This document shows, in pieces, positions 8,404 through 62,903 of a stretch of DNA of 64,000 nucleotides. Positions within the stretch are counted from its first letter, which is position 1. The number at the start of each line of letters is the position of its first letter. Under the pieces are notes generated by a model, which had not been told where the DNA came from, did no database searches, and worked only from the letters and a program-made list of their open reading frames with translations. This DNA is from Oscillospiraceae bacterium (GTDB lineage Bacteria > Bacillota > Clostridia > Oscillospirales > Oscillospiraceae): positions 17,770 through 81,769 of the forward strand of contig JAFSCD010000011.1 of the NCBI GenBank assembly GCA_017436955.1, written 5' to 3'. The translations under genes were made by a program, and so were the position numbers.

Positions 8404-10317
8404 TTATCCAAATGTGTTGAGTTTGGTCGCGGATTGATACAAGCCTTCTACGTAGCGTGTGATCTCCTCCGACAAATAGGCATACGCTGTGCCCTTTTCC
8501 AGGACATCCTCGCTGGGATACACGATCTCACTTTCTGCCAGGTACGCCTCCATATGCTCCCGGGCTGCGGAAATGGGCGATGCGTAGCAGATATAGTCCA
8601 TATTGGCACCGGAGATCTCCGGATCCGTCAGGAAATTGATGAAAAGCTCGGCGGCTTCCTTTTCCTTGCAGCAGGTGGGGATGCACATAGCATCCGTAAA
8701 CAGGTTGAAGCCCTGCTCCTGGGGCAGATAGAACGCCAGATCTTCATTTTCCTCCATCATCAGCATACAGTCGCCGGCGTAGTAGGGTGCGATCCAGGCT
8801 TCCTCATTTTCCATAATGGTGTAGATCTGATCCATTACGTACTGCTGCACCAGAGGCTTCTGCTCCGCCAGCTTCTGGGCGCAGGCATCCAGCTCGGTCT
8901 TGTCGGTGGTATTGATGCTGTAGCCCAGCAGATACTGGGCGATGCCGAAGGCATCCCGGGAATTGTCGATCATCAGGATCTTGCCGGCATACTTTTCGTT
9001 CCACAGCAGCTCCCAACCGGTCAGGTCGGCTTCATCCACATACTTGGTGTTGTACAGGATGCCCAGCGTACCCCAGGTATAGGGCACGGAGTATTTATTC
9101 TCCGGGTCATAGGCAGGATTCTTGAACTGCTCGTCCACATACCGGAAGTTTTCGATATTGTCGAAATTCAGCTCCAGCAGCATATTCGACTGGATCATCC
9201 GGTCGATCATATAGTCCGAAGGGATGATCACATCCACCGTAATGCCACCGTTGTTGAGCTGGGAGTACAGCGCTTCGTTGGACTCGTAGTAGGACATATT
9301 CACTTCGATGTGGGGGTACTTTTCCTCAAAGGCCTTGACGATATCCAGCGTACCGTCGCTGCCGTCGGCCATATTCATACCCCAGTTTTTCACATTCAGG
9401 GTGATTTTTTCCTGCTTGTTGCTGAAGATCAGCGCGCAGCAGCCCACCAGCAGACAAACCGCCACGGCGCCGGCGATCACACGGCGGAAGATCATCCGGC
9501 CTCTGGAAACGGAGCGCATAGTCTCCCGCTTGCGGCCGGCACGGATCTGCAGCAGATTCATCACCACCATCAGCACGAAGATCAGCAAAAACAGCAGTGT
9601 GAACATTGCGTAGACCTTGTTCTGGATGGGCTTTTTGGTGTAGGTGTAGATCTCCACCGGCAAGGTAACGAAATCGGAGCCGGTCACGAAATAGCTGATA
9701 ACAAAATCGTCCAGGCTCATGGTAAAGGTCATAATGCCGCCGGAGACGATGCCGGGCAGGATTTCATAGAGAATGACCTTGAAAAACGCCTGCACGGGGG
9801 TGCAGCCCAGATCCATGGCGGCATCCGTCAGGCTGCCATCCATCTGCTGGAGCTTGGGCATAACATTGAGGATCACATACGGCAGACCAAAGGTCACGTG
9901 GGCGATCAGCAGCGTCCAGAAATTCAGACTTTCCCGCTGACCCAGCAGCCCGGAGCCCACAAAGACAAACAGCAGGCTTAAGCTGACACCGGTAACGATA
10001 TCCGGGTTCGTCATGGGGATATTGGTCAGGCTCATAACCACCTTGCGCATCTTCGGCTTCAGGCTGTGGATGCCCACCGCCGCCACGGTGCCGAAGGCAA
10101 CGGAAATACCGGTGGACAGCAGCGCGATCAGCACGGAGTTGCCCAGCAGCCGCAGCAGATCCTCATCCCGGAACAGCTCCGCATACTGGTGCAGGGTAAA
10201 GCCCTCGAATTTGGTGATGTCCTTACCCGTATTGAAGGATGCCACGATCAGCACCACCATAGGGATATACAGGAAAATGAACATCAAAATGGTGAGGATA
10301 CGGTTTGTCTTCTTCAT
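8404..10317 (-). CDS. potCD: Fused spermidine/putrescine ABC permease (PotC) and substrate-binding protein (PotD)
   Basis: The 637-aa protein imports polyamines with PotA and PotB. Residues about 1-265 form a six-helix ABC permease with the EAA-like loop near AAMDLGCTPVQAFFKVILYEILPGI. A further hydrophobic segment (about 283-303, IAGAVAVCLLVGCCALIFS) leads into a periplasmic-binding-type domain (about 310-637) with NVKNWGMNMADGS, SDYMIDRM, VPYTWGTLGILYNTKY and CIPTCCKEKEAAELFINFL, typical of PotD. The fusion ties the binding protein to the membrane, removing the need for a lipoprotein anchor. Start overlaps potB by 4 nt. Confidence 0.93.
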   Translation of the reverse strand: MKKTNRILTILMFIFLYIPMVVLIVASFNTGKDITKFEGFTLHQYAELFRDEDLLRLLGNSVLIALLSTGISVAFGTVAAVGIHSLKPKMRKVVMSLTNIPMTNPDIVTGVSLSLLFVFVGSGLLGQRESLNFWTLLIAHVTFGLPYVILNVMPKLQQMDGSLTDAAMDLGCTPVQAFFKVILYEILPGIVSGGIMTFTMSLDDFVISYFVTGSDFVTLPVEIYTYTKKPIQNKVYAMFTLLFLLIFVLMVVMNLLQIRAGRKRETMRSVSRGRMIFRRVIAGAVAVCLLVGCCALIFSNKQEKITLNVKNWGMNMADGSDGTLDIVKAFEEKYPHIEVNMSYYESNEALYSQLNNGGITVDVIIPSDYMIDRMIQSNMLLELNFDNIENFRYVDEQFKNPAYDPENKYSVPYTWGTLGILYNTKYVDEADLTGWELLWNEKYAGKILMIDNSRDAFGIAQYLLGYSINTTDKTELDACAQKLAEQKPLVQQYVMDQIYTIMENEEAWIAPYYAGDCMLMMEENEDLAFYLPQEQGFNLFTDAMCIPTCCKEKEAAELFINFLTDPEISGANMDYICYASPISAAREHMEAYLAESEIVYPSEDVLEKGTAYAYLSEEITRYVEGLYQSATKLNTFG

Positions 10318-50761: not shown

Positions 50762-50792
50762 GTTTGTGTTGCAAAAAGGAGGTGCAACGCAC

Positions 50793-51077
50793 ATGACAAC
50801 ACTTGAAGATCTGTATTACGGTAACATCAGTCCGCACGAAAGGTACATAAAGCGCGGTTCGAGAGTCGATCAACTCGTAAAGCTCATATGCAAAAACGAG
50901 GAAAGCCTAATGGCAACGCTCACTGAGCAGCAGAAAGAAACTTTCGAAAAATTCAAAGACTGTCAGAGCGAACTGTCGGGACTGACCGAACGAGATGCAT
51001 TCAGGGATGGCTTCATCCTTGCAGTGCGAATAATGGTTGAAGCAATGGAAGGGTTAGAAACGGTGGATGATATATGA
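50793..51077 (+). CDS. DUF6809-family small protein
   Basis: The 94-aa acidic, helical protein (MTTLEDLYYGNISPHERYI ... LTEQQKETFEKFKDCQSEL) belongs to a family common in Firmicute mobile elements and of unknown function. The ATG at 50793 is 9 nt from AGGAGGT. The stop overlaps the lipoprotein start by 4 nt. Confidence 0.8.
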   Translation: MTTLEDLYYGNISPHERYIKRGSRVDQLVKLICKNEESLMATLTEQQKETFEKFKDCQSELSGLTERDAFRDGFILAVRIMVEAMEGLETVDDI

Positions 51078-51778
51078 AAAAACTAATAATCCTTCTTCTC
51101 TGCTGTGTGGTACTCTTGAGTATGGAGGGATGCGGTATCAACACCGCACCGCCTCCTACAGAGAGTCCGCCGACAACGGTATCGGAAACGGTAATAACAG
51201 AAACACCGCTCGAAACAACACCGCCCGTGACGGCGGTAGAGCCGACAGAGAAAGAAAAAGAGCCTGTCACAACCGAGAATGAGGATCAGGTAACCGAGCC
51301 GACCGTGGTCGCTACAGAGCCGACAACGACACGCCCTACAGAAGAAACAACAACTACAACAAGCGCCGTTGAAGAAAATGCTACTCCTCCGATCGTGGAA
51401 ACGGTGACAAGCACAACACCACAACTTGCGGAAAAAGAAACGACGAAAACTGAACCGCACAAGGATGAACTAAAAGCCGAAACGGAACCTTCGAAGGTAA
51501 CCGAGTTGGAACCTACTGAAAAACCTGCTCCCTTCGATATTGATCACTGGATTGCATATGCAATGAGCTACGCCAAAAGCAAGGGACTCGTGCTGAGCGA
51601 CACAGCGTTGGACTGCTGGGACAACCCGATCCGAGCAGGATCACATTGCATTTACCTCGAAAGAGATATCCAAAGCAGATTGAATCGCTATGCAATGGAC
51701 GAGGACATCACCGACGTGTGGATTTGGGCAGAAGCCACGGGCAGCGACTGCTACGACATTTATATCGGCTACGCTTAA
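51074..51778 (+). CDS. Thr/Pro/Glu-rich surface lipoprotein
   Basis: The 234-aa protein has a lipoprotein signal (MKKLIILLLCCVVLLSMEGC, Cys20), a disordered stalk rich in T, P and E (about 22-155) and a compact C-terminal domain of about 75 residues starting FDIDHWIAYAMSYAKSKGLVL and containing two cysteines (LDCWDN, SHCIYL) plus a third in SDCYDIYIGYA. The C-terminal domain is not recognised. Coupled by ATGA overlap to the DUF6809 gene, so both are expressed together; perhaps a surface-exclusion or adhesion function, which is a guess. Confidence 0.82.
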   Translation: MKKLIILLLCCVVLLSMEGCGINTAPPPTESPPTTVSETVITETPLETTPPVTAVEPTEKEKEPVTTENEDQVTEPTVVATEPTTTRPTEETTTTTSAVEENATPPIVETVTSTTPQLAEKETTKTEPHKDELKAETEPSKVTELEPTEKPAPFDIDHWIAYAMSYAKSKGLVLSDTALDCWDNPIRAGSHCIYLERDIQSRLNRYAMDEDITDVWIWAEATGSDCYDIYIGYA

Positions 51779-51955: not shown

Positions 51956-51984
51956 TTGAAAACAAATGAGATATATGCTATAAT
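51956..51984 (+). promoter_or_regulatory. Promoter of the restriction-modification operon
   Basis: TTGAAA (51956-51961), 17 nt, TATAAT (51979-51984), 37 nt before the HTH gene. All genes to hsdM follow with gaps under 25 nt. Confidence 0.8.
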
Positions 51985-52020
51985 ATATTCTGCAGAATTG
52001 TATTCATAGGAGATATGGAA

Positions 52021-52215
52021 ATGATTACAAAAACAGATATGCCGGATCGGTGGTATTCCACAAAAGAAATATGCGCATACCTCGGTATCAGTCGAGATAC
52101 TTTGCTTGTTTGGATTGCGAACAAAAATATGCCCGCTCACAAAGTCGGTCGCAACTGGAAATTCAAAGTTAGCGAAGTAGATGATTGGATCAAAAGCGGA
52201 CAAGCAGCAGAATAA
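52021..52215 (+). CDS. Excisionase-type helix-turn-helix protein leading the hsd operon
   Basis: The 64-aa product (DRWYSTKEICAYLGISRDTLLVWIANKNMPAHKVGRNWKFKVSEVDDWIKSG) is a MerR-like/HTH_17 winged-helix DNA-binding domain. ATG 52021 is 8 nt from AGGAG; ATG 52015 is too close. Proteins of this kind act as excisionases or as small regulators; placed first in the restriction operon, 23 nt before hsdR, it may time or autoregulate expression. Confidence 0.85.
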   Translation: MITKTDMPDRWYSTKEICAYLGISRDTLLVWIANKNMPAHKVGRNWKFKVSEVDDWIKSGQAAE

Positions 52216-52238
52216 GAATGTGATGGAGATAGTGTTTT

Positions 52239-54977
52239 ATGAAACCTGAAGATAAAGCGCGAGTTACAATTGATAAAAAGTTAATAGAATCCGGCTGGAC
52301 GATTCAGGATGTTAAATCCCTTAATCTTTCGGCTTCTCTTGGCATTGCTGTACGTGAGTTTCCTACAAGCACCGGACCGGTAGATTATGCCCTGTTTTTG
52401 GAAGGAATCCCGGTAGGAGTTATTGAAGCCAAGAAAAGCGAGTTGGGCGAAAACATCACCTCTGTCGAGAGTCAGTCTGCTCGTTATGCAACCAGCACTT
52501 TTAAGTGGATCAAAAACGAATATCGCATTCGCTTTGCCTATGAAGCAACAGACAAGTTGACTCGCTTTACCGACTATGACGATATCAAATATCGATCCAG
52601 AACGGTGTTCTCTTTTCATCGTCCCGAAACGCTTCTTGCTCTCTTAAAACAGCCCGATACCATCCGCAATAACATGAAGCGTTTCCCGGAATTTGATCCG
52701 ACGGGATTCCGCAAATGTCAGATTACAGCAATTGAAAATCTTGATGCTTCTTTTGCTGACAATCGTCCCAAAGCATTGGTGCAAATGGCTACTGGCGCCG
52801 GAAAGACTTTTACTGCTATTACCGCCGCATACAGACTTTTGAAATACGGCAAAATGAACCGTATTCTTTTCCTCGTTGATACCAAAGGCCTTGGCGAACA
52901 AGCAGAACGAGAGTTTCTTGCCTATAAACCTACTGATGATCCTCGCCCGTTTTCGCAGATTTACGGCGTACATAGACTCAAGTCCTCTTACATTCCCGAT
53001 GGTGTACAAATCTGCATCAGCACCATTCAAAGAATGTACTCCATTCTCAAAGGAGAGGAATTGAACGAATCCGCGGAAGAAATCTCTTTTAACGAGTATG
53101 TTACCGCAGATTCCAAAGCACCGAAAGAAGTCGTTTACAACGAAAAGTATCCGCCGGAATTCTTCGACTGCATTATCGTTGACGAATGCCATCGCTCTAT
53201 TTACAATGTTTGGAATCAGGTTCTCGAATATTTTGATTCCTTTATCATCGGCTTGACTGCTACACCGGACAAGCGTACCTTTGCGTTCTTTAATGAAAAT
53301 GTAGTTAGCGAATATCCCCGTGAGCAGGCTATTATTGACGGAGTCAATGTTGGAGAGGATATTTTCCTCATCGAAACCAATGTGGGCAAGAACGGCGCTC
53401 ATATTATGAAACAGCGAATTGAGATAAGAAGCCGCCTTTCTCGTGAAAAACGCTGGAAAGAACTGGACGAAGATTTGGACTACAAGCCAACGCAGCTTGA
53501 CAGAGATATTGTTAATCCCAGTCAGATACGGACGGTAATTCGTTCTTTCAAGGAAAATGTATTCACCACGCTATTTCCGCGCCGTAAAGAAGTGCCGAAA
53601 ACCCTTATCTTTGCTAAGACAGACAGCCACGCTGATGATATCATTCAAATCGTCCGCGAGGAATTTGGCGAAGGAAATGAGTTCTGTAAAAAGATTACCT
53701 ATTCTGCAGAGAACCCCGAAAGCGTGTTGAGTTCTTTCCGTAATGACTACTATCCCCGCATTGCCGTTACTGTGGATATGATCGCTACGGGAACGGATGT
53801 TAAGCCGATTGAGTGCTTGATCTTCATGCGTGATGTGCGTAGCAAGAACTATTTTGAGCAGATGAAAGGTCGAGGAACCCGTACACTTTCCAAAGACGAT
53901 CTCCAAAAGGTCACTCCCTCTGCAACCGACAACAAAGACCATTTTGTTATTGTCGATGCCGTTGGTGTTACAAAATCCAAAAAATCCGACACTCGTACTC
54001 TTGAACGCAAACCCTCCGTCAGCATGAAAGAATTGATGATGAATGTCGCTCTTGGTGATAAGAGTGAAGATACACTCACTTCACTTGCTAATCGTCTGAT
54101 TCGCTTGAATGCTCAAATGACAACAAGCGAGCGCAAAACAGCAGAAGAAATGGTCGACTGTCCTGTAGGGAAAATCGCAGAACGCTTGTTAAACGTTTTT
54201 GATGAAGATGTTATTCTAACAAAAGCCAGGACTGATACCGGCTCAGACGCTCCAAGCGAAGAACAACTCGCTTCGGCAAAAAAAGAACTTCTCAACGAAG
54301 CGGTTACACCGTTCCACAACCCGGATTTTCGTAACTATCTTGAAATCACCCGTCGTAGCCACGAACAGGTCATTGACAATGTCAATCTTGACGAGGTTCT
54401 GTTTGCCGGATTCGACTCGCAGCAAGAGGAAAATGCAGATCGTGTTATATCTTCTTTCCGCCAGTTTATTGACGAGAACAGAGATGAAATTATCGCTCTG
54501 CGTATCATCTACGACCAAAAATATAAAGACCGCCCGATGGCGATTGATGGATTGAAAGCATTATATGAGAAGCTGAAATTCAAAGGAATCACCGTGGAGC
54601 GTCTGTGGGACTGTTATGCCATTAAGAAGCCCGAAAAAGTAAAGCGTGGTACGATGGCACAATTGTCCGACCTTATATCCATCATTCGTTTTGAAATGGG
54701 ATATACCGAAAATCTTGCACCCTTTGCAGACAGAGTGAACTATAACTTCATGCAGTGGACACTCCGCCGCAACGCAGGTGCAGTACATTTCACGGACGAG
54801 CAGATGGAATGGCTTCGTCTTGTCAAAGACCACATTGCCGTATCTTTGAGCATTGAAACGAGCGACCTTGACCTTAATCCTTTTGATCGCAAAGGTGGTC
54901 TCGGACGGTTCTATGAGGTGTTCGGAGATCAGTATGAAGCGATTTTGATGGAAATGAATGTAGAATTGGTGGCGTGA
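52239..54977 (+). CDS. hsdR: Type I restriction endonuclease subunit R
   Basis: The 912-aa motor and nuclease subunit has an N-terminal PD-(D/E)XK site (D49 in GPVDYALF and E63-x-K65 in GVIEAKKS), Walker A ATGAGKT at 184-190, a DECH box at 315-318, LTATPDKRT and the second RecA domain with MIATGTDVKPIECLIF and QMKGRGTRTL. The C-terminal part resembles the EcoEI-type R domain that contacts the methylase. With HsdM and HsdS it translocates and cuts unmodified DNA. GGAG lies before the ATG. Confidence 0.95.
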   Translation: MKPEDKARVTIDKKLIESGWTIQDVKSLNLSASLGIAVREFPTSTGPVDYALFLEGIPVGVIEAKKSELGENITSVESQSARYATSTFKWIKNEYRIRFAYEATDKLTRFTDYDDIKYRSRTVFSFHRPETLLALLKQPDTIRNNMKRFPEFDPTGFRKCQITAIENLDASFADNRPKALVQMATGAGKTFTAITAAYRLLKYGKMNRILFLVDTKGLGEQAEREFLAYKPTDDPRPFSQIYGVHRLKSSYIPDGVQICISTIQRMYSILKGEELNESAEEISFNEYVTADSKAPKEVVYNEKYPPEFFDCIIVDECHRSIYNVWNQVLEYFDSFIIGLTATPDKRTFAFFNENVVSEYPREQAIIDGVNVGEDIFLIETNVGKNGAHIMKQRIEIRSRLSREKRWKELDEDLDYKPTQLDRDIVNPSQIRTVIRSFKENVFTTLFPRRKEVPKTLIFAKTDSHADDIIQIVREEFGEGNEFCKKITYSAENPESVLSSFRNDYYPRIAVTVDMIATGTDVKPIECLIFMRDVRSKNYFEQMKGRGTRTLSKDDLQKVTPSATDNKDHFVIVDAVGVTKSKKSDTRTLERKPSVSMKELMMNVALGDKSEDTLTSLANRLIRLNAQMTTSERKTAEEMVDCPVGKIAERLLNVFDEDVILTKARTDTGSDAPSEEQLASAKKELLNEAVTPFHNPDFRNYLEITRRSHEQVIDNVNLDEVLFAGFDSQQEENADRVISSFRQFIDENRDEIIALRIIYDQKYKDRPMAIDGLKALYEKLKFKGITVERLWDCYAIKKPEKVKRGTMAQLSDLISIIRFEMGYTENLAPFADRVNYNFMQWTLRRNAGAVHFTDEQMEWLRLVKDHIAVSLSIETSDLDLNPFDRKGGLGRFYEVFGDQYEAILMEMNVELVA

Positions 54978-54978
54978 T

Positions 54979-56127
54979 ATGTTTTATTACAGATACCGTT
55001 CGGGCAGCGAATTGTCAGTGAAGGAACTCATTTATGATGAACTGTATTTCGCTTCCCGTGAAGAATGCAACGATCCTTATGAAGGGAAAACCTTTGCTAC
55101 TTTTTCTGCAGATAAAGATTTGTGGAACAATTTAATTAACGAAGCGTTAAAAGCATATAACATTAAACCACTTGATTCTTTAAAGGAAAGGATCGTTCAA
55201 TATTTTTTATCAAAAGCGCCAATGCCAATAGAAAATGTTTTGAGAATACCCAAAAATGAATTTGTAGACATCGGTGCAAGAACTTACGAACGACGCATTT
55301 TGCCATCTATGTTGGAAGCAATACAGAATTATGTTATGTGGTATTCACCCGAAGAACGCTACTTTGCTTCTTTTTCCAAGGCAAATGATAACTTTCTGTT
55401 GTGGTCGCATTATGCTAATAATCATAAAGGTTTTTGCCTCGTGTATAGACCGATTGATGGAAAAATTAAACAAAATCCAAATTGGAAACGTACACAAACC
55501 GCAACTCTGCCTTTGCCAAGGTTAACATTTGTAGTTCCGGATGCGTTTGAAATACAAGATGTGGAGTACGTTTCAACTCCTAAATCTTCAGATGGATTTA
55601 TGTGCTTTCCCGCAAGTGTTGCTGGTGATAATCATTCGCCGGAAGAAATTGAAACAGCACGAGCCGAACACGCCAAAAACTATCTACAAAAACATTCGGT
55701 TTGGGACTATGAACAAGAATCAAGAGTTGTCTTGTCAAGCGGTGTGCAATGGCTTGCGGGTCAAAAACTTACTCTGCCGTCACATCAACGACTTTTTCAT
55801 ATTGATCCCACGCAACTTGTAGGAATTATATTGGGCGCGCAAATGTCCAATGCACAACGAGAAAGAATCAAAGAGATTGTCGCCGAAAAAGTTGAGCGTT
55901 GGTACATTCCAACAACCGACCACAGGATTATTTCGAATTTTGTTTTATTTGAAGAAACCTTATCCGAAACTAATCGCGAGGTCATTATAGAACCTACTGG
56001 AATTTATACTGGAACGTCAGTTTTGACAAAGAAAAGCCCAGATTTTTCTCGCTTATACGAAGAATGGCAGAATGGTTGGGCAATTGAAATCAAAGGCAAT
56101 TCAGCACAGAAAATAAAAATCGATTAG
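54979..56127 (+). CDS. DUF2971-domain protein
   Basis: The 382-aa soluble protein begins MFYYRYRSGSELSVKELIYDELYFASREECNDPYEG and contains YFASFSKANDNFLLWSHYANNHKGFCLVY, the hallmark of DUF2971, a family often seen in defence islands and of unknown biochemistry. The gene starts 1 nt after the hsdR stop, so it depends on hsdR translation. It is markedly AT-rich. It could be an accessory or an independent anti-phage effector. Confidence 0.85.
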   Translation: MFYYRYRSGSELSVKELIYDELYFASREECNDPYEGKTFATFSADKDLWNNLINEALKAYNIKPLDSLKERIVQYFLSKAPMPIENVLRIPKNEFVDIGARTYERRILPSMLEAIQNYVMWYSPEERYFASFSKANDNFLLWSHYANNHKGFCLVYRPIDGKIKQNPNWKRTQTATLPLPRLTFVVPDAFEIQDVEYVSTPKSSDGFMCFPASVAGDNHSPEEIETARAEHAKNYLQKHSVWDYEQESRVVLSSGVQWLAGQKLTLPSHQRLFHIDPTQLVGIILGAQMSNAQRERIKEIVAEKVERWYIPTTDHRIISNFVLFEETLSETNREVIIEPTGIYTGTSVLTKKSPDFSRLYEEWQNGWAIEIKGNSAQKIKID

Positions 56128-56137
56128 GAGTCTAAAC

Positions 56138-56560
56138 ATGAGTTTTTATGATGCATTTAAGGATGCTATAAATGTAGCGCAAAAGGCAGATAATGTGGAA
56201 TTATATCGTCAGTTGCTTGATCTAAGTGCGCAGGCGTTAGATTTACAAGCAGAGGTAGCTCGTTTGCGTGAAGAAAACGCTGCATTAAAGAAATCAAAAG
56301 ATATCGCTGAGAAAATAATTCGTCACGAAGAACCTATTGTCACCATAGAGGGAGACACAAATAATTTGTATTATTGTTCTCATTGCTGGGACAGCGAACA
56401 AAAGCTCATCCAGATAAATTGTCATAAAGACGGAACTTTTGAATGTCCTCACTGTAAAACAAGTGGTAATTATAATAATGAACTAAAACGTCAATCCGAT
56501 GTAGCTCAACTTCGTGCTATCTCAGAATTGAACTCTAGAAGCCAAAAGCGTTTTATATAA
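56138..56560 (+). CDS. Coiled-coil and zinc-ribbon protein of the hsd operon
   Basis: The 140-aa protein has a helical N-terminus (MSFYDAFKDAINVAQKADNVELYRQLLDLS), a coiled coil to about residue 60 (LQAEVARLREENAALKKSKDIAEKI) and a treble-like zinc ribbon with C80, C83, C103 and C106. AGGAG precedes the ATG by 7 nt. I do not know a function; the shape suggests a dimeric adaptor that binds nucleic acid or protein through the ribbon. Lies between the DUF2971 gene and hsdS. Confidence 0.8.
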   Translation: MSFYDAFKDAINVAQKADNVELYRQLLDLSAQALDLQAEVARLREENAALKKSKDIAEKIIRHEEPIVTIEGDTNNLYYCSHCWDSEQKLIQINCHKDGTFECPHCKTSGNYNNELKRQSDVAQLRAISELNSRSQKRFI

Positions 56561-56571
56561 GGGTAATCATT

Positions 56572-57792
56572 ATGCTCACAATGAAATTAAAAGAATGCTG
56601 TACGGTTATTGCAGGGCAGTCTCCAGAATCAAAATACTACAACACCGAGGGGATAGGAATACCTTTTTTTCAGGGAAAAGCTGACTTTGGAGAGGTATAC
56701 CCTACCATACGTGTGTATTGTTCTCAACCCACAAAAATCGCGGAAAAAGATGATATATTGCTTTCTGTTAGAGCGCCGGTCGGAGCAACAAACTTGTCCC
56801 CAGGAAAAGTATGTATTGGTAGAGGACTGACCGCTATTCGGCCATCAGCAGACCTTGATTTGAAATATTTGTTGTATTTTTTTCGTTATTATGAAGTTCA
56901 GCTCCAAGAAAAAGGAACTGGTACAACATTTAAAGCTATAACGCAAGACGTAGTGAAAAACATCGAAATTCCTATTCCCGATATCGATGAACAAAAACGC
57001 ATCGTTTCAAAAGTTGATGAGCTTTTCTCTGAGCTTGATAACGGTGTTGAAACGCTAAAAAAGACGAAGCAACAGCTTGCGGTGTATCGTCAGGCGGTGC
57101 TTAAAGAAGCTTTTGAAGGAAAATTTACAGCACATATCCCTTGCGATGTGGAATTGTCGTGGGCATCTGAAGAAGAAACTAAAAGTCTGCCTGCTATCCC
57201 AAAAGAATGGCAATATATTGCACTTTCTAATTTGGGCGATTTAGGACGTGGAAAATCAAAACACAGACCAAGAAATGATCCGAAATTATTTGAGGGTGGG
57301 AAGTATCCTTTTTTGCAAACCGGAAAGGTTAAAGCAGCTAAACAATACATTACTGAATATTCAAAGATGTATGGTGAGTTCGGTCTGCAACAAAGCAAAT
57401 TGTGGCCCAAAGGAACTCTATGTATTACCATAGCCGCAAACATAGCTGAAACAGCTTTTTTAGGTATTGATGCTTGTTTCCCGGATAGCGTAGTCGGTTT
57501 TACTCCGTATGAACACATTATTCCAGAGTACATTAAGTATTTTATTGAATCACAAAAGTTGCGGTTATGGGCATTCGCACCAGCAACCGCCCAAAAGAAC
57601 ATCAATTTGGACACTTTGGAAAATTTGATAGTTCCTTATTGCTCTGTAGAAGAACAGCAACTTGTAATTGCTAAAATTGAAGCAAGGATGACTATTTGCG
57701 ACAGCATTGAGCAAACGGTCGACATCGCCTTGCAACAAGCTGAAGCTATGAGGCAGAGCATTTTGAAAAAAGCGTTTGAGGAAAGTTTTTAG
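56572..57792 (+). CDS. hsdS: Type I restriction-modification specificity subunit S
   Basis: The 406-aa protein has two target-recognition domains (about 1-140 and 200-350), each followed by a helical spacer: DIDEQKRIVSKVDELFSELDNGVETLKKTKQQL near 140-175 and EEQQLVIAKIEARMTICDSIEQTVDIALQQAEAM near the end. Each recognises half of a split DNA target. The first ATG (56572) has AAGGG 8 nt upstream. Both halves look intact. Confidence 0.93.
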   Translation: MLTMKLKECCTVIAGQSPESKYYNTEGIGIPFFQGKADFGEVYPTIRVYCSQPTKIAEKDDILLSVRAPVGATNLSPGKVCIGRGLTAIRPSADLDLKYLLYFFRYYEVQLQEKGTGTTFKAITQDVVKNIEIPIPDIDEQKRIVSKVDELFSELDNGVETLKKTKQQLAVYRQAVLKEAFEGKFTAHIPCDVELSWASEEETKSLPAIPKEWQYIALSNLGDLGRGKSKHRPRNDPKLFEGGKYPFLQTGKVKAAKQYITEYSKMYGEFGLQQSKLWPKGTLCITIAANIAETAFLGIDACFPDSVVGFTPYEHIIPEYIKYFIESQKLRLWAFAPATAQKNINLDTLENLIVPYCSVEEQQLVIAKIEARMTICDSIEQTVDIALQQAEAMRQSILKKAFEESF

Positions 57793-57806
57793 TAAGGATT
57801 TATGCT

Positions 57807-59153
57807 ATGAAAGAGAAAGTCAAAAAAGCAAAAGAAAAAATATCAAAACACAATATCAAGGACTTTTTGTGTTCGTTAGGCAAAAAAATCAAGCCTGTTG
57901 TACTGATGGTTTTGAAAATACTTGCGAGAATACCATATCTTTGTGTAGCAGGTATCCCCTTTTTGAATAGGTTTATTCCATCTGATGTGGTATTGTGGGT
58001 GTGGATACCTGCGCTTGTGATCTCTTTGCTTATTGATCTTCTCCTACATAAAAAACACTCCAAAAATCCACCTGAGAAAAAGCAATGGGAGAAAAATCTT
58101 GACGACTTTACCAAAGGATCCTCCATCGTAGCTTTTGTTGTTTTTCTTAGTGCAATCATCATCAACTATTTCGATACTGCTTATAATTGGTGGATCGCAA
58201 TAGCCATTATACTCTTTGTTGCTATCCCGTTTTCGATCAATGGAATGTTTGATCTTGCCAAAAGAATCAAGCAAGAAAAGCAAAGTTCTACCGTTGACTT
58301 TACAAAAGCAAAAATTCAATATGTTCTGTTTTACTGGCTTGCAGATGCTTTTTATATTTCCGTATGCACGAATTGGGATATAGGAAAATTTGTATTTGGC
58401 GGTATTGCTCTGCTAATATTGCTGTATAGCGTTGCTTCTTCCTTCCTTTCACAAAAAATTAAATACAAATGGATGCTGATACACGATTTTGTGATTACGA
58501 TTGCTTTGACCGTGTATTTGATATACATTATTCCGGATGCATCAATGCAAAACGTGGTGCTCGTTTTGGTTAGTGCTATTTATGGCGGTTTTATTGCACT
58601 TGTAGGTGTGGCGTGGACAATCAAGGATGGCCAACAGCGTGAGGCAGAATCTAAAAGACTTGAAAAAATACCATATCTTCAAGTTGAGATTGATAAATGG
58701 ATCACAAGCGAACGTGGCGAACTAAATGTTCCGGGCATATGGTTGAATATCACACCATCAAACAATGAAAATAGTATCTCCTCCGGCGCAAGCATAAAAA
58801 TCACAAACATCGGATTAGGTATGGCAAACAATTTGCAGTGCAGATCGGATTCTGCTACCGGAAGCTTCAAGCATTCCTTGCCAACCGCATTGCTCCGATG
58901 TGATACATCCTGTAGCGAAAATATGCTGTTCAACGCAGCTCGCCAGGATAACACAAGTGTAAATGACTCAAGGTTGATTTTTCTGTTCGATGACCTGTTA
59001 GGAAATCATTATGAGCAAAGTCTGCAGATAACTTTTGAAATAAATGTTGGATACATAAAAGTGATTTCTTATAAAATGGATGCTCCCGTTTTCTTAGGAC
59101 GAGATAATTATTCTCAAAACGACAGTCGCTCAATGGCAAAAGAGGTGAAATAA
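57807..59153 (+). CDS. Unknown eight-pass membrane protein with soluble C-terminal domain, between hsdS and hsdM
   Basis: The 448-aa protein starts with a basic helix (MKEKVKKAKEKISKHNIKDF), then about eight membrane helices (roughly 32-55, 60-78, 103-120, 126-146, 166-185, 190-211, 218-238, 243-268) and a charged joint (WTIKDGQQREAESKRLEKIPYL) leading to a beta-rich domain of about 170 residues (ISSGASIKITNIGLGMANNLQC). No family is recognised. It begins 14 nt after hsdS and ends 3 nt before the nuclease-like gene, which makes chance co-location unlikely. It could be a membrane effector or anchor for the restriction complex. Confidence 0.82.
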   Translation: MKEKVKKAKEKISKHNIKDFLCSLGKKIKPVVLMVLKILARIPYLCVAGIPFLNRFIPSDVVLWVWIPALVISLLIDLLLHKKHSKNPPEKKQWEKNLDDFTKGSSIVAFVVFLSAIIINYFDTAYNWWIAIAIILFVAIPFSINGMFDLAKRIKQEKQSSTVDFTKAKIQYVLFYWLADAFYISVCTNWDIGKFVFGGIALLILLYSVASSFLSQKIKYKWMLIHDFVITIALTVYLIYIIPDASMQNVVLVLVSAIYGGFIALVGVAWTIKDGQQREAESKRLEKIPYLQVEIDKWITSERGELNVPGIWLNITPSNNENSISSGASIKITNIGLGMANNLQCRSDSATGSFKHSLPTALLRCDTSCSENMLFNAARQDNTSVNDSRLIFLFDDLLGNHYEQSLQITFEINVGYIKVISYKMDAPVFLGRDNYSQNDSRSMAKEVK

Positions 59154-59156
59154 CTG

Positions 59157-59801
59157 ATGGCAAGAGGTGCAGAACGACAATTGGAACTTCTTGTATTACA
59201 AGAGTTGAAAAAAGCAGGTTATCCCGAAGATTCAATCGTTACAGATTGGCGTTATCGCAACAATATCTTTGACTTTGTCATAGTAGATAAAACAACAGAT
59301 ATTCCGCTAATGATAATCGAATGCAAACACGTTAACAACCAACACAGTTTGGATGCGGTTGCTAATCAGCTGCGCAGATATAGCGATAGTTTAGATTATC
59401 CTGTAAGAACCTGTGCTGCTGTAAGCACGGGAGAAAGCAAATTTGATTTTTACGATTTCACTGAAAAAATAAAGAATCCGGACTTGCCGATTTCTGAATG
59501 TGGGCCAACCGATATCCCATCATACGATCTAATAAAAACCGGCGTTAAGAGCAAGTTGATCACCGCTCAGAAAAAGCGAAAAAAGAAATATATCAATGGA
59601 TTGCGAATTGTTTGTTGGGGGATCATCCCGCTTGTTGTTCTTGCAGTTGCAATACTTGATGCAATGGGTGTTTATGAACTGAACACCGAGAGATTGATTA
59701 TGGTCGGTATTTTTATAATATCAATTCTGCTTCCGTTTTTCGGTGAAATTAAGCTGGGCGATCTAACGCTTACACATAAAAAGAAGGATGAGGAGAAATA
59801 A
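59157..59801 (+). CDS. PD-(D/E)XK nuclease-like protein with two membrane helices
   Basis: The 214-aa protein combines an N-terminal restriction-like domain (about residues 1-110), with D39 in NIFDFVIVD and E55-x-K57 in LMIIECKHVN, and a C-terminal pair of membrane helices (about 151-170 and 180-197) separated by a basic linker (QKKRKKKY). The nuclease part recalls the N-terminal domain of HsdR. The stop TAA shares its last base with the hsdM ATG, so its translation is coupled to the methylase. A membrane-tethered nuclease in a type I operon is not something I can name; function is inference. Confidence 0.8.
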   Translation: MARGAERQLELLVLQELKKAGYPEDSIVTDWRYRNNIFDFVIVDKTTDIPLMIIECKHVNNQHSLDAVANQLRRYSDSLDYPVRTCAAVSTGESKFDFYDFTEKIKNPDLPISECGPTDIPSYDLIKTGVKSKLITAQKKRKKKYINGLRIVCWGIIPLVVLAVAILDAMGVYELNTERLIMVGIFIISILLPFFGEIKLGDLTLTHKKKDEEK

Positions 59802-61279
59802 TGTCTGAACAATCAACAACAATAATCTCTAAGGTTTGGGGAATGTGCAATCCTCTCCGTGATGATGGTGTATCCTATGGAGATTATCTTGAACAACTTA
59901 CATATCTCATCTTTCTGAAAATGTCAGATGAGTATTCCAAGCCGCCGTATAAAAAAGAAACAGGTATTCCGCAAGGTTATACCTGGTCGGATATGAGCAC
60001 GTTGAAAGGCGCAGAGCTTGAAGATCAGTACAAAGCAACCCTTGAAGAACTTGCCAAGCAAGGCGGCATTCTTGGAATGATTTTTGCCCAAGCCAGTAAC
60101 AAGATCAGTAACGCCGCTATTCTTTACCGTATCGTCCAGATGATAGATAAAGAAAAATGGGTGTCTATGTCTTCCGACGTTAAGGGCGAGATTTATGAGG
60201 GCTTGCTCCAAAAGAATGCAGAAGATATCAAGAGTGGCGCAGGACAGTACTTCACGCCACGTCCTTTGATCCGCGCTATGGTTGAGTGTATCCGTCCCGA
60301 ACCGAAGAAAACGATTGCCGATCCTTGTTGCGGTTCCGGTGGCTTCTTCCTCGCTGCACAGGAATTTATCACGCAAAACTATACGCTTGACCGTGAGGAT
60401 AAAGAGTTCCTTAAGAACGAAACGTTCTTCGGTAACGAGCTTGTTGCCGTCACATTCAAACTGTCTCTGATGAATCTCTATCTGCATAATATCGGAGATA
60501 TTTACGGTAATATACCGATAGCGCATGGGGACTCTCTTTTGACAGATCCCGGCTACCGTGTAGACTATGTACTGACCAATCCTCCTTTCGGCAAAAAGTC
60601 TTCCATCACGATGACAAATGAGGAAGGTGAAGAAGAGGAAGAAGAATTGGTCTATAACCGTCAAGATTTTTGGACAACCAGTTCCAACAAACAGCTCAAC
60701 TTCGTTCAGCACATCAACACCATCTTGAAGTCGACGGGAAAGGCTGCGGTTGTTGTTCCGGACAATGTTCTCTTCGAAGGCGGTGCCGGAGAAACAGTGC
60801 GCAAGAAATTATTGCAGACCACCGATCTGCACACCATACTTCGTTTGCCGACCGGCATCTTCTACAAGCCGGGTGTTAAGGCAAATGTAATTTTCTTTGA
60901 TAAGCGTCCGGCGAGTCCTGATATGCAGACTAAGGAAATTTGGATTTACGATTTCCGTACCAATGTCCATTTTACATTGAAGCAACATCCTATGACAGAT
61001 GCAGATCTGCTTGATTTTATTGCGTGCTACAATCCCGAAAATCGTCATGAACGTAAGGAAACATGGGCGGAAGAAAATCCCGATGGTCGCTGGCGTAGAT
61101 TTAGTGTTGACGAGATTTTAAAACGTGATAAGACGAGCTTGGATATCTTTTGGATTAAGGATAAGTCGCTTGCTGATCTTGATAATCTCCCCGATCCCGA
61201 TGTGCTTGCCGATGATATTATTGAGAATCTGCAAAGTGCTTTGGAAAGCTTTCAAGAATTGAAAAAGCAGCTTTCATAA
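59801..61279 (+). CDS. hsdM: Type I restriction-modification methyltransferase subunit M
   Basis: The 492-aa N6-adenine methyltransferase has the helical HsdM_N domain (about 1-130), SAGQYFTPRPLIRAMV-like lead-in (GAGQYFTPRPL), motif I ADPCCGSGGFFLAA (about 173-186) and motif IV NPPF at 260-263, followed by an acidic insert (EEGEEEEEE). It methylates host DNA and is needed for cleavage by the HsdR complex. Last gene of the operon, followed by a strong terminator. Confidence 0.96.
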   Translation: MSEQSTTIISKVWGMCNPLRDDGVSYGDYLEQLTYLIFLKMSDEYSKPPYKKETGIPQGYTWSDMSTLKGAELEDQYKATLEELAKQGGILGMIFAQASNKISNAAILYRIVQMIDKEKWVSMSSDVKGEIYEGLLQKNAEDIKSGAGQYFTPRPLIRAMVECIRPEPKKTIADPCCGSGGFFLAAQEFITQNYTLDREDKEFLKNETFFGNELVAVTFKLSLMNLYLHNIGDIYGNIPIAHGDSLLTDPGYRVDYVLTNPPFGKKSSITMTNEEGEEEEEELVYNRQDFWTTSSNKQLNFVQHINTILKSTGKAAVVVPDNVLFEGGAGETVRKKLLQTTDLHTILRLPTGIFYKPGVKANVIFFDKRPASPDMQTKEIWIYDFRTNVHFTLKQHPMTDADLLDFIACYNPENRHERKETWAEENPDGRWRRFSVDEILKRDKTSLDIFWIKDKSLADLDNLPDPDVLADDIIENLQSALESFQELKKQLS

Positions 61280-61291
61280 ATCTAATGTACG

Positions 61292-61327
61292 CGTCCTCAT
61301 TACTTTTTTGTAATGAGGACGTTTTTT
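61292..61327 (+). terminator. Intrinsic terminator of the hsd operon
   Basis: A 12-bp perfect stem (CGTCCTCATTAC 61292-61303, complement 61310-61321), 6-nt loop and T6. Confidence 0.94.
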
Positions 61328-61655: not shown

Positions 61656-61751
61656 ATGATTGTATCAAAATTCAGAATCAACACAAACGAAAGGAGGATT
61701 GGATGCAGCACAAAAATTTCTTTATGGTTCCTAATCGAATCTTTGATTTAG
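61656..61751 (+). CDS. Possible 31-aa leader peptide overlapping the HTH gene start
   Basis: An ATG at 61656 with AAAGGTGG 7 nt upstream opens a 31-codon frame (MIVSKFRINTNERRIGC...) ending at TAG 61751, 49 nt inside the HTH gene in another frame. The HTH ribosome site lies within it, so its translation could control access to the HTH start. Unproven; kept as a small ORF worth testing. Confidence 0.35.
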   Translation: MIVSKFRINTNERRIGCSTKISLWFLIESLI

Positions 61752-61990
61752 AACTGAAGCCGAGAGACTTCACCGTGTATTGCTGTCTGCTTCGGCACAG
61801 TGACAGCAAGGACGGCTCCTGCTTTCCCTCGCGGAGAGTCATCGCAAAGGAGTGTGGGATGGATAGGAAAACCGTTGACTCTGCTGTTGAAAATCTCTCG
61901 TCCCTCGGTCTTGTGAAAAAGATTCAGCGATACCGTGAGGACGGAACGAGGACGAGCAACCTCTACTACGTGGCAAACCTTTTGGAGTAG
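61703..61990 (+). CDS. Helix-turn-helix protein (HTH_36-like), replication- or regulation-type
   Basis: The 95-aa product (MQHKNFFMVPNRIFDLELKPRDFTVYCCLLRHSDSKDGSCFPSRRVIAKECGMDRKTVDSAVENLSSLGL) is a winged-helix domain of the kind at the N-terminus of plasmid and element replication initiators. It stops early, after DGTRTSNLYYVANLLE, so it is either a short regulator or the first part of a split initiator. AAAGGAGG lies 6-7 nt before ATG 61703. Confidence 0.78.
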   Translation: MQHKNFFMVPNRIFDLELKPRDFTVYCCLLRHSDSKDGSCFPSRRVIAKECGMDRKTVDSAVENLSSLGLVKKIQRYREDGTRTSNLYYVANLLE

Positions 61991-62498: not shown

Positions 62499-62903
62499 AT
62501 GGCAACCAATAACAAAATCAAATTTCCCCTCTGGGTAAAACCGAAAACAATGGAAACCGTGAAAGAAATGTACAAGGACGATGACTGCCGGAGCCAGTCG
62601 GAATTTATTGAGAAAGCAATACACGCATATGTCGGTTATCTACGGGCAGATAACAGTCCGGGAATGCTGCCGAATTATATGGTCTCTACGATGAAGGCTA
62701 TCGTGGACAGCAGCGAAACACGAATGTGCAGAATGCTGTTCAAGCTGGCGGTGGAGATGGCGATCACGATGAATGTCCTCGCGGCTCACTGTGATATAGA
62801 AGAAGGAAGTCTTGCTAACCTTCGCCAAAGCTGTATCGACGAAGTGAAACGGATTAACGGAACGCTTGGATTTGAAGATGCCTACTATTGGCAGAAGGGC
62901 TGA
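62499..62903 (+). CDS. Mobile-element protein with ribbon-helix-helix-like N-terminus
   Basis: The 134-aa protein starts NNKIKFPLWVKPKTMETVKEMYKDDDCRSQSEFIEKAIHAYVGYL, which has the strand-helix-helix outline of ribbon-helix-helix DNA-binding proteins, followed by an all-helical part ending RQSCIDEVKRINGTLGFEDAYYWQKG. Such proteins occur in Firmicute integrative elements as relaxosome accessories or repressors. AAAAGGAG precedes the ATG. Confidence 0.75.
   Translation: MATNNKIKFPLWVKPKTMETVKEMYKDDDCRSQSEFIEKAIHAYVGYLRADNSPGMLPNYMVSTMKAIVDSSETRMCRMLFKLAVEMAITMNVLAAHCDIEEGSLANLRQSCIDEVKRINGTLGFEDAYYWQKG

Follow-up and report, generated by a model that had tools for sequence, protein, structure and literature searches.

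A type I restriction-modification operon family with constant hsdR and hsdM genes and a replaceable interior that probably carries second-line antiviral cargo

Miller and colleagues reportedly described the rlo/mlo hsd loci of Campylobacter jejuni in 2005, and Payne and colleagues are said to have treated embedded defences in a 2024 preprint. In the hypervariable region of the C. jejuni hsd loci, rlo open reading frames (ORFs) lie between hsdR and hsdS, and mlo ORFs between hsdS and hsdM (PMC5183652; this and the papers cited below were available to us in part, and our statements on them hold for the available text). PrrC is a guard inside the EcoprrI type I operon that acts when restriction is blocked (PMC3874165, PMC12707154), TgvAB consists of two genes embedded in the type I operon of Vibrio cholerae VPI-2 and forms a second antiphage system (PMC11411939, which cites Payne and colleagues on embedded genes), and DarTG2 is found in the RRDM island of enteropathogenic Escherichia coli (EPEC), together with the regulator RptR (PMC12255303). 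RhuM, Fic and HEPN genes in restriction-modification (R-M) operons have also been described, as have PrrC or RloC with RhuM or Fic toxins (PMC3710099). Here, we analysed a stretch of 64,000 nucleotides (nt) from an Oscillospiraceae bacterium (GCA_017436955.1, contig JAFSCD010000011.1, positions 17,770 to 81,769), hereafter the window, which contains a type I operon with four extra genes, X1 to X4, lying between hsdR, hsdS and hsdM.

By sequence, the operon is a complete type I R-M operon. As a first-pass annotation of the window had stated, its eight ORFs, all on the + strand, form one tight run (HTH, hsdR, X1, X2, hsdS, X3, X4 and hsdM), with successive gaps of 23, 1, 10, 11, 14 and 3 nt and a 1-nt overlap (TAATG) between X4 and hsdM. 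HsdR retains its nuclease (EAK, QxxxY) and SF2 translocase (GAGKT, DECH) motifs, HsdM retains NPPF and DPCCGSGGF, and HsdS contains two target-recognition domains, seen as two Methylase_S stretches. We designate the hsdR-hsdS interval slot 1, the hsdS-hsdM interval slot 2, and the additional genes within them cargo. Our preferred reading, to which we assign a probability of about 0.6, is that hsdR and hsdM are constant rails enclosing a replaceable interior (slot 1, hsdS and slot 2), and that the cargo would supply second-line antiviral effectors, a role suggested by sequence comparison. The first-pass proposal of an enlarged system was not supported in the sense of a fixed eight-gene unit, in that the exact cargo set recurs in one other locus only (L040) and cargo reassorts around hsdR and hsdM.

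Used as a direct query, X4 was found in one of 200 genomes of the bacterial family, its own, and X3 in three of 391 genomes of the class, namely its own and two with weak matches, which we interpret as an FtsK-like protein in one case and, in the other, a gene in the neighbourhood of a relaxase-like gene; single-protein queries of plasmids and viral contigs with X3 and X4 gave no matches. Because these queries found almost nothing, the survey was run through HsdM. At E ≤ 1e-60 it was detected in 18 of the 300 family genomes searched; apart from the window's own genome, ten of these had HsdM at 81–86% identity. From a species-level genome collection we kept the best 80 of 253 related HsdM loci (80–100% identical), to which L025, L027, L030, L031, L032 and the plasmid locus L037 were added, giving 86 distinct loci once five duplicates had been dropped. 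In 70 of the 86, hsdR, hsdS and hsdM are in line, a fraction that cannot prove conservation of gene order, since the script accepted the R-S-M order only. The other 16 loci were left out of operon counts: in 11 the contig ends while R or S is still incomplete, L107 is hsdM alone on a short contig, and no other gene order was seen, with L073, L111, L116 and L032 not resolved. L040, one of the 70, is the same operon (99.85% identical DNA over 8394 bp, cut within hsdR) from a metagenome-assembled genome of Clostridia from goat colon; judging from locus titles, uncounted, the operon family occurs mostly in clostridial gut genomes.

The slots contain ORFs of at least 90 amino acids (aa) in 56 of the 70 operons (31 in slot 2 only, 24 in both and one in slot 1 only). 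The 121 cargo ORFs of at least 55 aa, a number of which come from partial loci, group into 39 families (20 with a single member) and make up 49 distinct combinations among the 57 operons with any such ORF. Relatives of all four extra genes recur in these close operons rather than being absent from them: X2 in 10/70, the X3 cluster in 15/70, the X1 cluster in 6/70 and the X4 family in 2/70 (L040 included). The X3 cluster, A, has 18 members and would occupy 14 operons without L049; 16 of the 18 carry the C-terminal domain of X3, and the members in L049 and at L118 8394 are linked only through a membrane part. Families A, D, E and G occur exclusively in slot 2, and B (that of X2; 11 genes), C (9) and H (6) exclusively in slot 1, with the DUF2971 cluster in both slots (2 and 4). 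Among families with at least three members, 89 of 93 genes lie in the majority slot of their family, against a mean of 63.5 and a maximum of 76 in 20,000 shuffles; the shuffling takes no account of relatedness and is complemented by counts of changes on the HsdM tree, which may itself be blurred by recombination. We counted 13 changes for the 15 operons with A, 9 for 10 with B, 9 for 9 with C and 8 for 8 with D, and 43 changes in the first slot 2 gene over the 70 rows of the tree. By this comparison, cargo turns over faster than hsdR and hsdM, and its families have been gained repeatedly.

In the pair L053/L109, the exchanged tract takes in ~350 bp at the end of hsdR, the interior, and ~700 bp at the beginning of hsdM: divergence in hsdR is 0.7% over 2393 bp and then 11.8% (uncorrected p 4.5e-25), and in hsdM 11.4% over 699 bp and then 1.0% (uncorrected p 3.9e-19), both at scanned split points. 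We also compared pairs with HsdM at least 93% and HsdR at least 90% identical, different cargo and DNA matches above 85% in both arms, other pairs being skipped by the script. In all 14 such pairs, DNA similarity ends −5 to +12 nt from the hsdR stop, and in 13 it resumes −21 to +39 nt from the hsdM start, the exception, L059/L109, sharing slot 2 cargo. Operons L050 and L057 are 99% identical in HsdM, 98% in HsdR and 19% in HsdS, with zero cargo families in common. In three of the 70 operons, but not in that of the window, remnants of core genes lie between cargo genes: slot 1 of L057 has 226 bp of the end of hsdR, slot 2 of L056 has 72 bp of the end of hsdS, and slot 2 of L099 has 62 bp of the start of hsdM and then 74 bp of the end of hsdS. 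Site-specific exchange was not supported, no common motif being found 3' of the hsdR stop; words like GAAGGGAG lie 5' of hsdM in 12/70 operons and are probably a ribosome-binding site.

Fourteen of the 37 cargo representatives scanned passed a Pfam cut-off, matching DUF6414, Mrr_cat, DUF4062, DUF5677, RhuM, TIR, Fic, DUF2971, HEPN_Cthe2314, DUF4238, DUF1016/YhcG, AlbA_2 (Schlafen-type), DUF1828 and Hypoth_Ymh. Several of these families are toxin, nuclease or immune-effector domains. The earlier suggestion of nested back-up effectors fits this content, since sister slots hold TIR, Fic, HEPN, RhuM, Mrr, YhcG, AlbA/Schlafen-type and DUF4062 proteins. PADLOC models matched one of ten representatives tested (Mrr-type). 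A membrane segment was predicted in 39 of the 121 cargo proteins, distributed over 29/70 operons; the same crude test flagged HsdR in 0/70, HsdM in 4/70 and HsdS in 4/70. A link of DNA cleavage to membrane events, proposed in the first-pass annotation, would be speculative, though cargo with a membrane anchor does recur. The uncharacterised, slot-specific families A (15/70 operons), B (10/70) and C (9/70) are candidate new defence proteins.

A cargo family was shared by 5 of 29 pairs of operons with HsdS at least 55% identical, by 41 of 190 at intermediate identity and by 216 of 1377 below 40%. Because sharing is about equal at high and low HsdS identity, cargo does not follow a particular HsdS, and we rejected the idea that cargo proteins are HsdS partners. 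When cargo-bearing operons were ordered by HsdM identity, sharing was likewise about equal, with 7/33, 21/145 and 234/1418 pairs from high to low.

X1 passes the cut-off of PF11185 (DUF2971; 42.8 bits, gathering cut-off 22) and matches the PADLOC candidate PDC-S31 (6.4e-31); its family alignment has 7 rows. The X2 family comprises 11 genes, all 11 in slot 1 and 35–54% identical to X2. No Pfam family reached its cut-off with X2 or X3. X3 had been annotated as an eight-helix protein and does have membrane helices, with seven hydrophobic peaks (Kyte-Doolittle), but that description missed a C-terminal beta domain at residues 291–431 of a structure model of moderate quality, predicted to be an Ig-like (ApaG/Ig-like) beta-sandwich; the X3 gene scores 2.3e-14 against the family A model. 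A 500-aa protein at L060 7437–8936 parallels X3, in that its family A domain is fused to a membrane part occurring alone in L049 and L118, and another membrane part joins the same domain in X3. The annotation of X4 as a PD-(D/E)XK-like membrane protein was borne out by an HsdR-like nuclease domain and two membrane helices. Residues D39, E55xK57 and Q71xxxY75 are present, matching D...ExK...QxxxY, which we take to be the HSDR_N-type PD-(D/E)XK motif, and the E-to-Q spacing of 16 equals that of the operon's own HsdR. The one relative of X4 found (L055 9324–9992, 31% identical) has V in place of Y. Apart from the window's operon, L055 alone combines relatives of X1 (52%) and X4 (31%), its HsdS being 65% identical. 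Sequence searches of the Protein Data Bank gave nothing useful with X1, X3 and X4, and mainly coiled-coil matches with X2. Pfam searches of X1 to X4 found no ABC-ATPase plus anticodon-nuclease (PrrC-type) domain (E ≤ 1) and no GmrSD-like type IV family.

X2 was found in five of 341 genomes of the class, partly in other contexts: the window, L125, L126, L127 and L128. L125 has X2 in the same frame, with HsdM 69% identical to that of the window. In L126 (8727–15676), X2 stands at the head of another type I operon (HsdR 29% and HsdM 31% identical to those of the window), which has its own 366-aa insert between hsdR and hsdS, with a sub-threshold BAR match. In L127, from genome G261, the neighbours of X2 are a DUF2971 protein on one side (25.3 bits, cut-off 22) and a family A membrane protein on the other (model E 1.3e-10), hsd genes being absent over 19 kb, and in L128 X2 adjoins phage-like genes. 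The refuting condition set in the first-pass annotation, absence of the extra genes from close operons or their scatter over unrelated contexts, had a mixed outcome. The family A model was matched in five of 321 genomes: the window, L127, L179 and two with weak matches in other contexts. L179 shares the frame, and there slot 1 holds a DUF2971 gene and slot 2 a member of family A; family C was found in one of 321 genomes, in L125 of the same frame. Within the survey, cluster A occurs in 6/10 operons with X2 versus 9/60 of the others (Fisher p 0.0048, best of six tests). The stand-alone triad of DUF2971, X2 and family A, together with this association, makes it a good hypothesis that relatives of X1, X2 and X3 form one module. 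More tentatively, X1, X2 and X3 might constitute a membrane-linked antiviral system of effector, adaptor and receptor, autonomous in some genomes and here split around hsdS, with the operon family as a chassis for recombining specificity and effectors.

X2-like genes, 35% identical, were also found in two viral contigs, and none in the plasmid and phage collections. The X2-like genes at L183 4836–5243 and L184 4980–5375 lie just upstream of apparent terminase small-subunit genes, and that at L128 9397–9843 is near the phage-like genes, the neighbours having been read by eye in each case. The X2 of immune operons may descend from a phage protein or mimic one.

If hsdR and hsdM are indeed constant rails, they would act as homologous-recombination arms between which the interior is swapped like a cassette, and the cargo effectors would be encoded on the transcript that also yields the restriction enzyme. 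Acting as one module, X1 would be the effector, X2 would serve it as an oligomerising coiled-coil/zinc-ribbon adaptor and X3 would be the membrane partner, with X4 as an HsdR-type nuclease held at the membrane; the targets of all four would be phages that escape or disable restriction. Several observations weigh against this model. The similarity edges at the hsdR stop and hsdM start are partly trivial and do not by themselves show a mechanism, because cargo abuts both genes. Strong divergence steps in both arms were seen in one of the six pairs examined; both genes of L081/L087 and L087/L091 step in the same sense but less strongly, L045/L047 steps in hsdM alone, L082/L098 is patchy, and L050/L057 is flat. 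Fourteen of the 70 operons have no cargo of at least 90 aa, indicating that it is dispensable for the R-M core, and Pfam gave no family above cut-off for 23 of the 37 cargo representatives. The structure model of X1 is too poor to use (mean pLDDT 42, pTM 0.30), and X4 falls just short of HSDR_N (23.7 bits, cut-off 25.1). The stand-alone triad was seen once, and the association of X2 with cluster A is only suggestive once relatedness is counted (independent pairs 4.0 vs 0.1, median p 0.125). Finally, inserts are also common in other type I operons of the same bacterial family. From 48 HsdM_N matches in 101 genomes, less three in the same frame and five not fetched, we obtained 40 control loci, 25 of them with R, S and M in one run; ORFs of at least 90 aa, counted by hand, unannotated and in some cases perhaps hsdS-inverting recombinases, lie between core genes in 20 of these 25, 17 of them between hsdS and hsdR.

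Inserts being the rule in the control sample (20/25), we rejected any uniqueness of the window's operon. Comparison of the R-S-M-frame cargo with the ORFs of the 40 control loci (E ≤ 1e-4) recovered cargo families Z (DUF2971), R and G in L156, z36 (AlbA-type) in L141, L145 and L147, in the last directly before hsdM, and U (Fic) in L171; no match was obtained for clusters A, B and C. At 11–18 kb of L156 is an M-S-R operon of another family, in which a DUF2971-type gene separates hsdS from hsdR, and R and G come right after hsdR.

One or more of the extra proteins could instead be toxins silenced by the HsdRMS complex and freed when a phage blocks restriction. The embedding is the same as that of PrrC, itself a guard, in EcoprrI (PMC12707154), sister operons carry toxin-type domains in their slots, and HEPN proteins in R-M operons, as well as PrrC/RloC with RhuM or Fic toxins, have precedents (PMC3710099). 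However, Pfam detected no PrrC-type domain in X1 to X4, and cargo is independent of HsdS identity (5/29 vs 216/1377 pairs), so that contact with a particular HsdS is unlikely, contact with the constant HsdR or HsdM being possible; we consider such guarding conceivable but rather unlikely. Alternatively, the cargo could be neutral or selfish, dragged along by hsdS exchange and without an immune role, as boundaries at gene ends, the core-gene remnants in 3/70 operons and the 14/70 operons without cargo might suggest. We judge this improbable, since the families recur by many independent gains, are slot-specific, include known effector-type domains and are unlinked to hsdS identity. It is also quite improbable that the extras are subunits or regulators of the R-M enzyme, for instance X2 as a partner of HsdS and X4 as a second HsdR-like nuclease on the same complex: X4 does have the HsdR nuclease constellation and spacing, and X2 precedes another type I operon in L126, but 14/70 close relatives do without cargo of at least 90 aa, X2 and DUF2971 occur without hsd genes, and cargo shows no tie to HsdS identity.

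The features of the operon and its surroundings are listed in the table. The single promoter and terminator annotated earlier correspond to good predicted sites, but the region contains 28 promoter-like sites, about as many as shuffled sequence (23.4, sd 5.1), so that one transcript for the whole operon is no more than plausible. The HTH protein is possibly the operon's regulator, and an alternative ATG at 52021 is better placed relative to the Shine-Dalgarno sequence AGGAGA. As a conserved part of the family it was rejected, given that tblastn (E ≤ 1e-3) of the 1.5 kb upstream of hsdR matched in 0/59 relatives with enough upstream sequence; by eye, some relatives have other small DNA-binding-like ORFs upstream of hsdR.

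Table. Features of the operon and of its immediate surroundings (window positions).
Feature	Position	Strand	Remarks
Promoter-like site TTGAAA-17-TATAAT	51956..51984	+	11/12 consensus bases, TG before second hexamer; not proof of function
HTH_17/excisionase-like small DNA-binding protein	52015..52215	+	HTH_17 1.2e-15; excise 2.6e-17
hsdR, restriction subunit (constant rail)	52239..54977	+	Pfam EcoEI_R_C 1e-37, ResIII 2e-36
X1, slot 1 cargo, DUF2971 protein, presumed effector	54979..56127	+	Pfam PF11185
X2, slot 1 cargo, coiled coil and CxxC...CxxC zinc ribbon, presumed adaptor	56138..56560	+	Family of 11
hsdS, specificity subunit	56572..57792	+	Pfam PF01420 Methylase_S 7e-37, 2 stretches
X3, slot 2 cargo, membrane helices and predicted C-terminal Ig-like beta-sandwich	57807..59153	+	Domain common to family A
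X4, slot 2 cargo, HsdR-type PD-(D/E)XK-like domain and two C-terminal membrane helices	59157..59801	+	
hsdM, N6-adenine methyltransferase subunit (constant rail)	59801..61279	+	N6_Mtase 6e-69, HsdM_N 4e-11
Intrinsic terminator-like hairpin	61291..61322	+	13 pairs, T run
Flanking HTH_36 protein, outside operon	61703..61990	+	PF13730 5.4e-15; possibly mobile-element replication gene
Flanking ribbon-helix-helix-like protein, outside operon	62499..62903	+	RHH_1 18.6 bits, cut-off 20.5 not reached

A DUF6809 gene lies on the upstream side of the operon (50784–51077), and similar flanking genes were seen in L125 (by eye) and in the Pusillibacter plasmid locus L037, the latter with a replication initiator, MobC and DUF6809. 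The shared DUF6809, HTH_36 and ribbon-helix-helix-like flanks suggest that the operon may ride on mobile elements. Directly upstream of the operon, positions 51074–51778 encode, as read by eye, a predicted lipoprotein rich in Thr, Pro and Glu. Elsewhere in the window, a 637-aa ORF (8404–10317) appears, on reading the sequence without a family search, to be a fusion of permease and substrate-binding parts of a spermidine/putrescine-type transporter.

Among the titles listed in our literature search, with subscription papers and bioRxiv largely outside its scope, none dealt with this operon family or with the function of DUF2971. The two rlo/mlo intervals and embedded toxins or second systems such as PrrC, TgvAB and DarTG are already known; within the literature searched, we did not find described the behaviour of rails and slots in this family, nor the X1-X2-X3 triad. 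The window's operon also resembles MADS, with an HTH protein similar to MAD1 and HsdM- and HsdS-like genes, but its scores fall below the NCBIfam cut-offs (MAD1 68.9/80, MAD2 105.7/720 and MAD5 24.6/400 bits).

As in EcoprrI, accessory genes are embedded here in a type I operon; PrrC, however, is an ABC-ATPase anticodon nuclease, and TgvAB are GmrSD-like type IV enzymes, families that Pfam did not detect in X1 to X4. The RRDM island likewise combines a small DNA-binding first gene, type I R-M and an embedded second defence system, but has hsdM first, DarTG2 between hsdS and hsdR, other cargo and another regulator. With the C. jejuni loci, the window's operon shares extra ORFs in the same two intervals; C. 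jejuni belongs to another phylum, and the likeness is one of gene position. Slot-specific families, HsdS-independent reassortment and recombination steps in hsdR and hsdM were not seen for rlo/mlo in the available text of PMC5183652. Toxins and second systems embedded in restriction operons have so far been mostly single cases; with its fixed arms, its pair of slots, 39 families of cargo and a visible recombination tract, this operon family makes it possible to test by what route second-line defences can be taken up while the first line stays intact, and whether the two are functionally connected.

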